55,848 nt of DNA from Gammaproteobacteria bacterium. GTDB taxonomy: Bacteria; Pseudomonadota; Gammaproteobacteria; Steroidobacterales; PWYM01. The stretch spans positions 1 through 55,848 of the forward strand of contig PWZL01000091.1 of assembly GCA_003567475.1 (NCBI GenBank), in the 5' to 3' direction. Position numbers and translations under genes: made by a program. Shown here piece by piece: positions 36,925 through 50,834 of this stretch. The first letter of the stretch is position 1, and each line of letters begins with the position of its first letter. The notes under the pieces are model-generated. The model ran no database searches, was not told the origin of the DNA, and was given only the letters and a program-made list of their open reading frames with translations.

Positions 36925-37788
36925 ATGACCAGCTATGTCAGTGAACGGCACCGTGGCGTCGGCTTCGGTGAGATGGCCATGCATGCCGGCTCGCTGGCGG
37001 ACCTGGCGGCCAGCGAGCCGGCCAACGGCGTCTATCTGGTCGCGCGCAGCTGGCAGGGTGGCAAGGTGCTGGAGCTCGACACCCACTTCGACCGGCTGGC
37101 GCGCTCTGCCGAGGCCCTCGGCCACGCTATCGAGGTGCCGCGGGCGCAGCTGCGCGCACAGCTCGAGGCCCAGCGACTGGCCTCGGGCTGGCGGGATATC
37201 CGATTTCGCATCACCGCCATCCTTGATACGCCGGCGTGGTGGCGGGTCTCGATCGAAGAGGCACGCGCCGTACCCGAGGGGCTGCTGCAGGGCGGTGTGC
37301 GCTGCCGGACGGTGTCTCACGGCGCGCGTCCGCAACCCAAGGTCAAATCCACCGCCTGGCTGCACGACCGTGAGCGGTTGCACACCGCCGACGATGGCGA
37401 CGAGCCGGTGTATGAACACCTTCTCACCCACAACGGCGACCGCATCCTCGAGGGCAGCTCCACGAATTTTTATGCGATCGTCGACGACACCCTGAGGACG
37501 GCGGGCGAGGGAATCCTGGAGGGCATTGCCAGGCGCATCATCCTGACCGTCGCCCGACCGCTCATGCCCGTGCAGCTGGTGGCGCCCCGGCTGGCTGACC
37601 TCGGGCCGGATGACGAGGCGTTCATCAGTTCAGCCACGCGGGGCGTGGTGCCGGTGAGGCGGATCGACGATCATCTCCTGGGCCCACCGGGCCCGGCCAC
37701 CCGGCAACTCATGGCGGCCTATGACGCCTGGCTGGAAAAACATCTCGAACCGCTGGTGGCGGCTAGCGACTGCAACCCGTCAAGGTGA
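36925..37788 (+). CDS. Class IV aminotransferase (branched-chain aminotransferase/aminodeoxychorismate lyase-like)
   Basis: Fold-type IV pyridoxal-phosphate enzyme of 287 residues. The Schiff-base lysine lies in PQPKVKSTAWL (near 139-141); the Glu and cofactor residues are in ILEGSSTNFYAIVDD (near 178), and the phosphate loop is LEGIARRIILTVA. FISSATRGVVPVRRID near 232 is the usual C-terminal signature. The residues do not fix whether the substrate is a branched-chain amino acid, D-alanine or aminodeoxychorismate. Its last 26 bases overlap the end of the lytic transglycosylase gene on the other strand. Confidence 0.88.
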   Translation: MTSYVSERHRGVGFGEMAMHAGSLADLAASEPANGVYLVARSWQGGKVLELDTHFDRLARSAEALGHAIEVPRAQLRAQLEAQRLASGWRDIRFRITAILDTPAWWRVSIEEARAVPEGLLQGGVRCRTVSHGARPQPKVKSTAWLHDRERLHTADDGDEPVYEHLLTHNGDRILEGSSTNFYAIVDDTLRTAGEGILEGIARRIILTVARPLMPVQLVAPRLADLGPDDEAFISSATRGVVPVRRIDDHLLGPPGPATRQLMAAYDAWLEKHLEPLVAASDCNPSR

Positions 37789-39202
37789 GCCGCTGACCGG
37801 GCCGGATCATGTAGCGCGGCCCACGGATGTCGTTGTCGCGCGCGATGGCCATCATGCTGGGGCAGCCGTTACGTCGCGCGATGGTCGACAGGGTGTCGCC
37901 TCGCTGAACGGTGTAGATGCGTGTCGGCGGCCGTCGCTGATCACGGGATTCGTGCAGTCGCGCGGCCAGCTGCGCCTGTTCGCCCTCGATGCAGTTCGCC
38001 CGATAGCGCTCCACCAGCGCCGCAGGCAGGGCGAGCTCCGTCCCCTCCGGCAGCCGATCGAAAGGTTCACGGCTGGGATTGAGATTGCGCAGGGTGCGGA
38101 ACCAGCCGGCGCGGGTCCCCGTCTGGCCCAGACAGACCGATAGCTCGCCGAGGCTCATCGGTGCGGCGAGCGCGACTGCAGCGGGCAGGACGTCAAGCTC
38201 GGGGAACTCGACACCGTACTGCTCCGGATGCAGAAACAGCCAGGCTGCCGCGAGCACATAAGGCACATAGTCCTGCGTCTCCCGCGGCAGTTGCGCGCGG
38301 ATCTCCGGGTTCCAGAAACTTGGCGCAGCCGACTGGCGGGTCAAGCGCAACACCCGGCCTTCACCGCCGTTGTAGGCCGCCAGCGCCAGTTCCAGGTCGT
38401 TATTCAATTCAGCGAAGCGCTCATTGAGATACGCCACGTTGGCGCGTGTCGAGAGCTCGGGATCAAAGCGCTGATCGAAACCATTCACCCGGCTCAAACC
38501 GAAGCGCTGACCGGTGTGCGGCATGAACTGCAACGGCCCGGCCGCCCCGGCGCGTGAGACGGCATGCACCCGTCCTCCGGACTCCTTGGCCAGAATCCCG
38601 AACAGCAGCGCCTCGGGCAACCCCGCCTCCTCATACACGGGCCACATCAGGTGGCGCATGAACTGGTAGTTCTCCCAGGCATCCATCAGCAGCGGCCGCA
38701 TCCAGGTCAGCCAGTCATGCAGCGCGGCGTTCACCGGGCCGTTGAGCTCGATCATCTCGCTCAGCGCGCGCCCGTTCAGAAGATTGACCGAGCGGACGGC
38801 CGCCGGCAGGTCAGCCAGCACCGCGGAGCTCTCCTCAGGCGCCACCTCCAGCTCGACGAACGCCTCGGCATCCCCGGTGAGGACGTCACTGCGCAGCGTG
38901 AGCAGATTCCCATAGGCGGCCATGAAGCGTTGGGGCTCGCAACCCGGCTGCAGCGTGCAGGCATTTCCCGCGGCGGCAAGCGTGGCGACGGCGCGGTCGA
39001 TCTCGGCCCGACCCAAGGTGTCGTCGCCGGCGCGCAGTGCCGCAAGTCCATCCTCATAGGCCTCGACGCTGATGCCAATCAGTTCGTAGAGTGCATTGAT
39101 CGCGAGCTCGTCCGCCTGGACAGGCGCCGGCGGCGTCTCCTCGAGCGTGGCACAGGCCGCGAGGAACACCCCGGACAACAACAGGCAGGACAGTCTGGAC
39201 AT
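37763..39202 (-). CDS. MltD-like lytic transglycosylase lipoprotein with LysM
   Basis: Cleaves peptidoglycan to anhydro-muropeptides at the outer membrane. The 479-residue protein has a lipobox FLAAC (lipidated Cys near residue 16), an unusual N-terminal helical region of about 160 residues, an SLT_1 domain with catalytic Glu in LFGILAKESGGR (near 205), then AGAAGPLQFMPHTGQ and LALAAYNGGEGRV, and one LysM domain at the end (YTVQRGDTLSTIARRNG). E. coli MltD has two LysM domains, so this is a shorter relative. The ATG at 39202 begins the lipoprotein signal. Confidence 0.92.
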   Translation of the reverse strand: MSRLSCLLLSGVFLAACATLEETPPAPVQADELAINALYELIGISVEAYEDGLAALRAGDDTLGRAEIDRAVATLAAAGNACTLQPGCEPQRFMAAYGNLLTLRSDVLTGDAEAFVELEVAPEESSAVLADLPAAVRSVNLLNGRALSEMIELNGPVNAALHDWLTWMRPLLMDAWENYQFMRHLMWPVYEEAGLPEALLFGILAKESGGRVHAVSRAGAAGPLQFMPHTGQRFGLSRVNGFDQRFDPELSTRANVAYLNERFAELNNDLELALAAYNGGEGRVLRLTRQSAAPSFWNPEIRAQLPRETQDYVPYVLAAAWLFLHPEQYGVEFPELDVLPAAVALAAPMSLGELSVCLGQTGTRAGWFRTLRNLNPSREPFDRLPEGTELALPAALVERYRANCIEGEQAQLAARLHESRDQRRPPTRIYTVQRGDTLSTIARRNGCPSMMAIARDNDIRGPRYMIRPGQRLTLTGCSR

Positions 39203-39271: not shown

Positions 39272-40312
39272 CTAGTCCAGGCCGACCAGTTCGGCGCCAA
39301 GCCGGGTGGCGTCGCCAAGCGTCGGTGCATAGCCGTCCGCGCCGAGGCGGCGCCACACCCCTGGCCCCTCGTCAAAGGCCCCGCCACCGACCAGGATGCG
39401 GATGTTCTCTCCGCACTCGCGACGTACCGCCGCGATGCTGTCGCCGACCGGGCGCAGCTGGGTGGCCAGCACCGCACTGAGGATCAACAGGTCCGCGCCA
39501 AAATAGCCGATGGCGACCGGCAGATCCTCGGCCGGGACATCCGCACCGAGCAGCAGGGCCCGCCAGCCGGCAAGCTCGAACAGATCGGCGGCAACCCGCA
39601 GTCCGAGTTCATGCACATTGCCCGCCACCCCGGCGATCAGCACCGTCCGGCCGTTCGCCGGGGCGCGTCCCGCACGGTGCGCAAGAATCGCCATGGCCCG
39701 CTCGGTGGTCGTGGTGACGAGGTGTTCCTCGGGAATGCTGAGGTCGCCGAGCTGCCAGAGGGTACCGATTTCACGCTGGGCGGGCATCAGCACGTCCAGA
39801 TACACCTTCTCCACCGGCCACGTCTCCGCAGCACCGGCGATCTGCGCCAGGGCGTCCGTGACGTTGCCCTCCAGCACCAGGTTCAGGAAGTTCAGTGCCA
39901 GCCGGTCCTCCGGGCGCGCTGGATCGAGGCCCGCCGCTTCGGGCTGGCGGGCTGGCGCGCGAAGCGCTGCCAACGCCGCGTCGATGATTTCTCGCGGCAA
40001 CGGCCCAGCGGCCGGCGGCAGTTGCCGATCCAGCACCTCGCGCAGTGCCGCGAAACTCGCCAGCAATCGGCTGACATCGCGACCCCGGGCCTCGAAGGCC
40101 TTGCGGCTCCAGCGCGCCCGTGCCACGAACAGCTCGGGCTCGCCGTGGGCAACCGCTGCGGCCAATTCGAAGATCCGTTGGGTCAGCTGTTGTTGCCAGG
40201 CGTGAAAGTCCTCACCGGCATGTCCGGCCAGGGTGACCGCCGCCTCCGCCGCATAAGCCGACGCGCTGCGCTCGAGCAGGGTGGCGGCGAAGTCCGTTGC
40301 TGCTGCAGTCAT
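39272..40312 (-). CDS. Cobalamin-binding sensor, CarH/AerR-like, without DNA-binding domain
   Basis: The 346-residue soluble protein has an N-terminal helical domain of unknown type (about 1-115), then a B12-binding module. The helix-bundle cap shows W186, nine residues, then E196-H197, the Wx9EH signature of adenosylcobalamin photoreceptors such as CarH. The Rossmann half carries VHELG with lower-ligand His234 (the usual Asp two before it is Asn) and LLGADVP, and ends with ILVGGGAF. There is no MerR-type domain, so it resembles AerR/PpaA-type antirepressors instead. A GGAGGA lies five bases before the ATG, right after the dusB stop. A PduO-type adenosyltransferase gene is in the same window. 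Confidence 0.85.
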   Translation of the reverse strand: MTAAATDFAATLLERSASAYAAEAAVTLAGHAGEDFHAWQQQLTQRIFELAAAVAHGEPELFVARARWSRKAFEARGRDVSRLLASFAALREVLDRQLPPAAGPLPREIIDAALAALRAPARQPEAAGLDPARPEDRLALNFLNLVLEGNVTDALAQIAGAAETWPVEKVYLDVLMPAQREIGTLWQLGDLSIPEEHLVTTTTERAMAILAHRAGRAPANGRTVLIAGVAGNVHELGLRVAADLFELAGWRALLLGADVPAEDLPVAIGYFGADLLILSAVLATQLRPVGDSIAAVRRECGENIRILVGGGAFDEGPGVWRRLGADGYAPTLGDATRLGAELVGLD

Positions 40313-40327
40313 GCGTTCCTCCGGCAC

Positions 40328-41308
40328 TCAGGCTGCGTGACGCCCGGCGAGGGTGGCGAAATGCTCGCGCACGAGCGTCTGTTGCGTCGCCGCCGTCTCG
40401 GCTCGGTTGACCCGCGCACGGAAGTCTTCGGATCCGAGGTGATCGGCGCAGTACCAGGCCAGGTGCTTGCGTGCGATGCGCACCCCCTGAGGCTCACCGT
40501 AAAACAGATACAGCGCCTCCAGATGCTCCAGCAGGATCGCCTCGACCTCGGGTGGCGCGGGTGGGGGCAGCAGGGATCCGGTCGCCAGATGATGGGCGAT
40601 CTCGCGGAAGATCCACGGCCGACCCTGCGCGGCGCGCCCGACCATCACGGCATCCGCACCGGTCTGGGCCAGCACCTCGGCGGCCTTGGCCGGCGAGTCG
40701 ATATCGCCATTGGCGATCACCGGCAGGTTTACCGCGGCCTTGACGCACCGGATGGTCTGGTACTCTGCAACACCGCTGTAGCGCTGCTCGCGGGTCCGTC
40801 CGTGGACGGCGATCGCGGCGATGCCAGCGGCCTCGGCGATGCGTGCCACCGCCACGGCGTTGTTCTGGGCGGCGCTCCAGCCGGTGCGGATCTTCAGTGT
40901 CACGGGGACGGCCACCGCCGCGACCACGCCCTCGAGAATGCGCGCCACCAGCGGCTCGTCGCGCAGGAGCGCCGAGCCCGCCCAGGCACGACACACTTTC
41001 TTTGCCGGGCAGCCCATGTTGATGTCGATGATCTGCGCGCCATGATCCACGGCGTGGCGCGCGGCTGCCGCCAGCATGGCGGGATCGGCGCCCGCGATCT
41101 GAACCGCGATCGGCGCGGGCTCACCCTCATGATCGAGGCGCAGACGCGTCTTGCGAGTGCTGCGCAGACGAGGATCTGCAGTGGTCATTTCGGAGGCGCA
41201 CAACCCGGCGCCCAAGCGTTTGCACAACACCCGGAACGGCTTGTCGGTCACCCCCGCCATGGGCGCGAGCAGCACCGGCGGGTCGATGGCATGAGCACCG
41301 ATATCCAT
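40328..41308 (-). CDS. dusB: tRNA-dihydrouridine synthase B
   Basis: FMN enzyme reducing uridine 17 region positions in tRNA. The 326-residue protein opens VLLAPMAGVTDKPFR and has the catalytic cysteine C100 in NMGCPAKKV, followed by GSALLRDEP; ANGDIDSPAKA and GADAVMVGRAAQGRPWIF complete the barrel. In many gammaproteobacteria dusB heads an operon with fis; here the following gene encodes the cobalamin sensor. The start has TATACT six bases upstream and no Shine-Dalgarno. Confidence 0.94.
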   Translation of the reverse strand: MDIGAHAIDPPVLLAPMAGVTDKPFRVLCKRLGAGLCASEMTTADPRLRSTRKTRLRLDHEGEPAPIAVQIAGADPAMLAAAARHAVDHGAQIIDINMGCPAKKVCRAWAGSALLRDEPLVARILEGVVAAVAVPVTLKIRTGWSAAQNNAVAVARIAEAAGIAAIAVHGRTREQRYSGVAEYQTIRCVKAAVNLPVIANGDIDSPAKAAEVLAQTGADAVMVGRAAQGRPWIFREIAHHLATGSLLPPPAPPEVEAILLEHLEALYLFYGEPQGVRIARKHLAWYCADHLGSEDFRARVNRAETAATQQTLVREHFATLAGRHAA

Positions 41309-50264: not shown

Positions 50265-50834
50265 ATGGGCAACCGATTGACAAAGATTTACACGCGAACC
50301 GGCGATGACGGCACGACCGGCCTTGGTGATGGCAACCGGATTGCCAAAGACCACCCGAGGGTCGAGGCGTACGGCACGGTCGACGAAGCCAACAGTGCCA
50401 TCGGCATGATCCTGGCGGTACCCGGGGTACCCGCAGCGGTGCAGACGTGTCTGACCGAGGTCCAGCACGACCTCTTCGACCTCGGCGGCGAACTGTGCAT
50501 TCCGGGTCATGTGGCCATCGGACCCGAGTTCATCACCCGGCTGGAGGAGACCCTGGACGCCTTCAACGCCTCGCTCCCGCCACTCAAGGACTTCATCCTG
50601 CCGGGCGGTGGCCCGGCGGCGGCGGCCTGTCATCTGGCCCGCACTGTCTGCCGGCGGGCCGAGCGGCGCGTGTGGTCGCTGGCACACCAGGAGGAGATCA
50701 ACCCCGAAGGCCTGCGTTACCTCAACAGGCTCTCCGACCTGTTGTTCGTGCTGGCCCGCGTGCTCGCCCGACACGAGCATGGCAGCGAAGTGATCTGGAA
50801 GCGCGGCAAACAGGGCAGCCCACCGCCGGCCTAG
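50265..50834 (+). CDS. PduO-type cob(I)alamin adenosyltransferase
   Basis: Makes adenosylcobalamin from cob(I)alamin and ATP. The 189-residue protein has the N-terminal ATP loop KIYTRTGDDGTTGLGDG (about residues 7-23), VEAYGTVDEANSAIG, and the later signature HLARTVCRRAERRVW followed by LNRLSDLLFVLAR. It forms trimers in the known family. It gives the cell the ligand expected by the sensor encoded at 39272. The last four bases overlap ampE. Confidence 0.94.
   Translation: MGNRLTKIYTRTGDDGTTGLGDGNRIAKDHPRVEAYGTVDEANSAIGMILAVPGVPAAVQTCLTEVQHDLFDLGGELCIPGHVAIGPEFITRLEETLDAFNASLPPLKDFILPGGGPAAAACHLARTVCRRAERRVWSLAHQEEINPEGLRYLNRLSDLLFVLARVLARHEHGSEVIWKRGKQGSPPPA

Follow-up and report, generated by a model that had tools for sequence, protein, structure and literature searches.

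Background

Photocobilins join a CarH-type cobalamin domain and a bilin-type globin in the same chain and are grouped by whether the adenosylcobalamin (AdoCbl) domain lies at the N- or the C-terminus (PMC10979010); BBD-CBD fusions are listed in PMC11796333. In the protein SasPcob Asp270 holds biliverdin (BV), and Trp296 forms a hydrogen bond with the corrin and packs on ring D of BV (PMC10979010). A coordinating Asp is a trait of the BV-binding members and not of the whole family; AbPcob, which has His there, is also called a photocobilin, responds to red light and takes up BV to a limited extent (about 20% occupancy), and stand-alone photocobilins are able to regulate a separate diguanylate cyclase (PMC10979010). 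The light response of cobalamin domains has an experimentally defined signature made up of the elements GxxW, EH, GxxH and GxxxP (PMC11796333). Ligation by His132 marks the light state of TtCarH, and SasPcob has Gln at the equivalent position (PMC11796333).

Here we describe pcob, a gammaproteobacterial gene in a stretch of 55,848 nucleotides (the window), whose product is a photocobilin-family protein consisting of a photoglobin and a B12 domain in the globin-first order. As globin-first photocobilins have already been published, this is no novel kind of protein, and as a family assignment pcob is ordinary. What deserves attention is the probable loss of the bilin from a retained phycobilin-type domain and the coexistence with an AerR/PpsR pair in the same genome.

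The gene and its neighborhood

The frame singled out in the earlier note is a genuine gene: it encodes 346 amino acids, opens with an ATG preceded by a perfect GGAGG (Table 1) and has orthologues of 86, 77 and 62% identity within the genus. Because the gap after dus is only 15 bp long and contains the GGAGG, the two genes are probably co-transcribed, with pcob in the distal position. Two congeneric genomes, those with the 86 and 77% orthologues, retain the order recQ-dus-pcob-mltD; in the third this order is interrupted by inserted genes, and outside the genus it is not kept in the loci of relatives that were compared. A PduO-type gene had also been reported from the window, and the ORF in question does carry the corresponding motif; its product is a possible source of AdoCbl.

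Table 1. Features of the pcob locus (positions in the window; residues are those of the pcob protein)
Feature	Position	Strand	Evidence or remark
mltD-like lytic transglycosylase (SLT + LysM)	37763..39202	minus	neighbor downstream of pcob
pcob, photocobilin-family protein, globin-first, 346 aa	39272..40312 (stop included)	minus	ATG at 40312
PF02310 (B12-binding), Rossmann domain, residues 223-328	39329..39646	minus	Pfam, E 4.6e-12
Signature GxxxP, G256-P260	39533..39547	minus	sequence
Signature GxxH, G231-H234, with N232; H234 = lower axial cobalt ligand	39611..39622	minus	sequence
PF02607 (B12-binding_2), helical-bundle cap, residues 142-210	39683..39889	minus	Pfam, E 4.7e-14
Signature E196-H197	39722..39727	minus	sequence
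Signature GxxW, G183-W186	39755..39766	minus	sequence
Photoglobin / phycobiliprotein-like domain, residues 1-124, six helices	39941..40312	minus	AlphaFold2, pLDDT 93
Trp68 codon, equivalent of SasPcob Trp296	40109..40111	minus	alignment; 50/50 relatives
Gln42 codon, equivalent of biliverdin-coordinating SasPcob Asp270	40187..40189	minus	alignment
Shine-Dalgarno GGAGG (perfect)	40318..40322	minus	5 nt 5' of the pcob ATG, within the 15-bp dus-pcob gap
dus (tRNA-dihydrouridine synthase)	40328..41308	minus	neighbor upstream of pcob, 15 bp away
Candidate PduO-type cobalamin adenosyltransferase	50265..50834	plus	motif TRTGDxGTTGLGDG alone

The cobalamin domain

Pfam recognizes only the B12 modules PF02607 and PF02310 in the pcob protein, both above their gathering cut-offs, and returned no match to an HTH or MerR domain. 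The light-response signature is complete, in agreement with the earlier claim of a B12-light-receptor signature, and W186, E196, H197 and H234 stand exactly where they had been placed. The light-response residues rank among the best-conserved positions of the protein, with W186, E196, H234, G256 and P260 present in all 50 relatives compared and H197 in 46 of them. The GxxW-x9-EH signature is absent from the MetH and the AerR-like protein of the same genome. The best sequence matches to solved structures are the photocobilins 8j2w/8j2x (phmmer, E 4e-21), followed by CtMerR and TtCarH, and the photocobilins also head the fold matches of the B12 domain (8j2y, Z 25.6; 8j2w, Z 25.4). Membership of CarH/LitR, which have a MerR-type domain at the N-terminus, is not indicated: such a domain is missing, and the NCBIfam CarH model scores 75.7 bits against a cut-off of 400.

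Two positions within the signature region call for comment. The Asp-to-Asn change before VHELG was read correctly (N232); the accompanying suggestion that the Asn tunes the ligand as a special feature of this protein can be discarded, since 39 of the 50 relatives share it and it is thus a property of the clade. The residue after the signature Trp is Q187 in pcob, with His at this position in 40 of the 50 relatives. As Q187 takes the place of the bis-His residue of TtCarH, the light state may differ from that of CarH and, judging from the sequence, be closer to that of SasPcob.

The N-terminal domain is a bilin-type globin

Fold searches with the full model returned mainly B12-domain matches, and residues 1-124 were therefore modelled and searched separately. 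With an alignment of 11 sequences as input, AlphaFold2 gave a pLDDT of 90 for the full-length protein and 93 for residues 1-124 alone. The top match of the latter model is allophycocyanin (VIA-align Z 15.3, rmsd 2.5 over 118 residues), and the bilin domain of SasPcob (chain residues 225-345) matches with Z 14.0 and rmsd 2.9 over 114 residues at 25% identity; Z values of this size come easily for helical bundles. As the Foldseek E-values for the isolated domain were all above 0.01, the assignment as a globin draws on these Z values together with two sequence comparisons: in an alphaproteobacterial relative this domain matches allophycocyanin with E 3e-5, and phmmer pairs residues 43-96 of pcob with the bilin globin at the C-terminus of SasPcob, placing W68 on W296, which suggests a domain-swapped photocobilin. 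The region that the earlier note had recognized as not being MerR-type, and for which it had recommended a fold prediction, is accordingly a bilin-type globin. An N-terminal globin of this type ahead of a CarH-type B12 domain defines the protein as a photocobilin or photoglobin-B12 fusion; at the position of the BV-coordinating Asp it has Gln42. What had been a B12 photosensor with an unplaced N-terminal domain is now assigned to a known, structurally solved family, and the exact residues of interest for experiments are named.

The bilin site

The chain numbering of SasPcob is offset by 6 (W61 of the paper is chain residue 55), and with this offset Gln42 corresponds to D270 and Trp68 to W296. 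When the alphaproteobacterial relatives were aligned to SasPcob separately, their Asp fell on D270. The bilin-site Asp is retained in alphaproteobacterial and Magnetococcales relatives, and the six Asp-bearing relatives form one clade (support 0.92). Gammaproteobacterial relatives outside this clade never have Asp at this position, where His, Tyr, Asn, Ala, Val, Phe and Gln occur instead. Trp68 is invariant (50/50). Given a variable Asp site alongside an invariant Trp68, the constraint for bilin coordination appears from these alignments to have been relaxed and the contact to the B12 domain kept. The natural series of Asp, His and Gln at the bilin site, combined with the invariant corrin-contact Trp, makes the part played by the globin in the B12 photoreaction accessible to experiment.

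A PF01126 heme oxygenase was found in 6 of the order's 196 genomes and in none of the five congeneric ones. In the genome carrying pcob, an HmuQ-like query, run without a positive control, and a search for the phytochrome PHY family gave no match; among heme-degrading families the searches covered PF01126 and HmuQ-like proteins. With Gln in place of the bilin Asp and no bilin-making enzyme detected, biliverdin is probably no longer carried by the globin of pcob, as far as sequence comparisons can indicate. AbPcob binds BV in part despite its His, so that loss of the Asp predicts, and does not prove, loss of the bilin.

In the Asp-bearing relatives we observed a recurring module (L013:2355-4411, L009:2255-4406, L010:248-3200, L012:5101-8440 and L092:1095-4003), in which a gene for an ABM-fold protein is followed by the photocobilin, or by separate globin and B12 genes, and then by a PAS/HisKA/HATPase kinase gene; split versions occur at L095 and L096. 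The ABM-fold protein is nearest to the heme-degrading HmuQ/IsdG/MhuD proteins, and in four of five aligned ABM proteins Ser occupies the position of the catalytic Asn of IsdG. PF01126 is absent from the genomes of L009, L010, L012 and L013. The module is possibly a cassette comprising a bilin-supply enzyme, a sensor and a kinase. At L068:6947-9212 (genome G136), from the same order as the window, the gene for an Asp-type photocobilin overlaps a HisKA/HATPase kinase gene and has no ABM gene adjacent to it.

Gene context in relatives

Amine oxidase, DUF1365 and CFA-synthase genes are associated with singlet-oxygen regulons. In ten loci of relatives a CFA synthase gene lies at most about 7 kb from pcob, usually accompanied by DUF1365 and FAD amine-oxidase genes; as many of the carrier genomes are related, these are not ten independent events. 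The clearest independent case, from another family (L078), has amine oxidase, DUF1365, CFA synthase and pcob genes following one another in the same orientation, overlapping or separated by short gaps. At L062 the amine oxidase and DUF1365 genes are directly upstream of pcob on the same strand, and in several loci an NmrA-like SDR gene is immediately 5' of pcob. In Vibrio cholerae CFA synthase is induced by blue light, and the photo-oxidative response runs via ChrR and a MerR-like protein (PMC5241685). The genome studied here has its own cluster of amine oxidase, DUF1365 and CFA-synthase genes (L090:7320-10601, contig C58), which is unlinked to pcob and beside which no B12 regulator was found; the neighbors of pcob in its own genus are recQ, dus and mltD, and not light-stress genes. 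The gene context in relatives thus supports, without being proof of, a role of pcob in photo-oxidative stress.

Other arrangements were noted in the same survey. L062 also has a second B12-binding frame (L062:11167-11811) about 5 kb from the photocobilin gene and near the contig end, which may be a truncated CarH/LitR-type regulator belonging to the same cluster. A second paralogue group (L065, L070, L071, L073, L082 and L083) consists of globin-first photocobilins encoded directly 3' of an HlyD/AcrB-type efflux pair, suggesting light-linked efflux. At L080 and L081 the photocobilin gene has in its vicinity a very long ORF that contains two UvrA-type ABC cores, and a link between light and DNA repair may exist there.

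Proposed mechanism

The present analysis yielded the domains, the fold, the signature, the loss of the Asp, the lack of a detected heme oxygenase and the separate AerR/PpsR pair; from these, we infer AdoCbl binding, photochemistry, dimerization, the absence of a bilin, a partner and an output for the pcob protein as follows. Most likely it is a B12-using green-light sensor with a second, phycobilin-type domain that seemingly lacks a pigment. The chain would be laid out as a photoglobin (1-124), a linker and a CarH-type cobalamin domain (about 132-346). By analogy with characterized relatives, AdoCbl would be bound in the dark in the base-off/His-on form via H234 in a head-to-tail dimer, across which W186 and the E196-H197 pair would hold the adenosyl group. 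Green or blue light would then cleave the Co-C bond and release adenosine, upon which the EH helix may shift and the dimer rearrange. The globin would pack on the B12 domain with W68 at the corrin edge; as the full-length structure comparison covers only the B12 domain, the aligners being sequential and the domain order swapped, this docking on the corrin is proposed from W68 alone. In such a single-pigment switch the globin could serve as a lid or as a docking or interaction surface, and the output would be a protein-protein contact with a partner, the route by which stand-alone photocobilins can act on a separate diguanylate cyclase (PMC10979010). We put the probability of this reading, namely a globin-first photocobilin acting as an AdoCbl-only light switch with a probably bilin-less globin lid and an output via partner contact, at roughly two in three. 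The protein would plausibly function in the control of responses to light or photo-oxidative stress.

We further advance, tentatively and with somewhat less than even confidence, that the gammaproteobacterial photocobilin clade converted a domain of the phycobiliprotein type into a pigment-free structural lid, and that its members are single-pigment, globin-first B12 photoreceptors guarding membrane lipids against photo-oxidation in bacteria that are mostly not phototrophs, here beside an unrelated AerR/PpsR switch.

Alternative explanations

The genome itself is phototrophic, with pufLM on contig C90 and puhA, bchG-like and bchP-like genes nearby. The photosynthesis gene cluster on this contig (L048:1-18001) holds puhA, MFS light-harvesting assembly proteins, the AerR-like gene, the PpsR gene, bchG-like and bchP-like genes and an IPP isomerase-like ORF, with pufLM upstream. 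This setting, and the fact that a B12 protein lacking a DNA-binding domain must work via a partner, speak for an AerR/PpaA-type antirepressor, in this case a second co-regulator of PpsR/CrtJ, and the earlier note had proposed a regulator of this style. Part of that proposal stands, as a CarH-type AdoCbl domain without a DNA-binding domain makes an output through a partner likely. The search for a PpsR/CrtJ gene that it recommended did find one (TIGR02040, 503 bits against a cut-off of 275), but directly downstream of an AerR-like gene (L048:7896-8843; best PDB match AerR 7te2, E 2e-14), whose product lacks the EH of the light signature. This dedicated gene fills the role, and we reject the equation of pcob with AerR, which would be expected beside ppsR/crtJ; pcob is flanked by dus and mltD on contig C70. 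Furthermore, relatives of pcob occur mostly in non-phototrophs: within the order, 8 of 43 carriers and 21 of 153 non-carriers have reaction-centre (Photo_RC) genes, an absence of enrichment that reveals no link of pcob to phototrophy. An AerR-type function thus appears improbable, and the case cautions that, even in a phototroph, B12 proteins lacking a DNA-binding domain need not be AerR. Still further down the scale, and hardly credible, is the notion that the protein is no light sensor and instead the corrinoid protein of an MtaC/MtbC-like methyltransferase system, the outcome that had been named as refuting the photosensor. The two-domain B12 module is identical in kind and the NCBIfam MtgC and MtbC models do match, but far under their cut-offs (55 bits versus 370 and 47 versus 350); there is no partner methyltransferase among the neighbors recQ, dus and mltD, the light signature is complete in pcob and absent from the MetH of the same genome, and the nearest matches are photoreceptors. 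We accordingly reject this candidate.

A more serious competitor of the AdoCbl-only switch, if still an unlikely one, is a two-pigment photocobilin, in which the globin would bind biliverdin or another bilin despite Gln42 and confer sensitivity to red as well as green light, as in SasPcob. It would have the same domains and fold and the same retained W68, and the red-light response of AbPcob, with its partial BV occupancy and His at the site (PMC10979010), gives it a precedent. Against it count the unconstrained Asp site across the gammaproteobacterial clade and a genome in which searches for PF01126 heme oxygenase, HmuQ-like proteins and phytochromes gave no match. The signal might alternatively be ligand availability and not light, the CarH-type pocket then serving as a sensor of AdoCbl or of redox or cobalamin status; a response to redox state is described for AerR relatives, among them the one of R. 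rubrum (PMC10734443). This we consider very improbable, as the light-response residues are among the best conserved and the loci of relatives hold genes typical of light-induced stress responses.

Comparison with known systems

Several described systems are comparable with pcob. CtMerR (8jbs) and TtCarH (5c8d) share the signature in their light-responsive B12 domain (E 2e-18 and 1e-17), and bear a MerR-type DNA-binding domain at the N-terminus where pcob has the globin. AerR/PpaA (7te2) and the SCHIC domain of AppA (4heh) likewise have a B12-type domain and no DNA-binding domain (Z 20.6 and 19.3), but are less similar in sequence and lack the globin, and AerR acts on CrtJ/PpsR. The photoglobin-B12 fusions of the BBAG-2 lineage (PMC10151467, PMC11796333) likewise unite a globin of phycobiliprotein lineage with a B12 domain; this lineage includes biliverdin binders, whereas the coordinating Asp has been lost in pcob. 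AbDPcob, an Acidimicrobiaceae photocobilin-diguanylate cyclase (8j2y), has a similar B12 fold (Z 25.6) and, like most gammaproteobacterial relatives, a replaced bilin Asp (here by His), and differs in its fusion to a GGDEF enzyme and its C-terminal globin. SasPcob of Saccharothrix syringae (8j2w/8j2x; PMC10979010) is likewise composed of a CarH-type B12 domain and a bilin-type globin without an output domain, with 31% identity to pcob in the former (Z 25.4) and 25% in the latter (Z 14.0). Equivalents of its Trp61, Glu71, His72, His108 and Trp296 are all present in pcob, and both proteins have Gln after the signature Trp; in SasPcob, however, the globin comes second and retains the BV-coordinating Asp270, where pcob, with its globin first, has Gln42.
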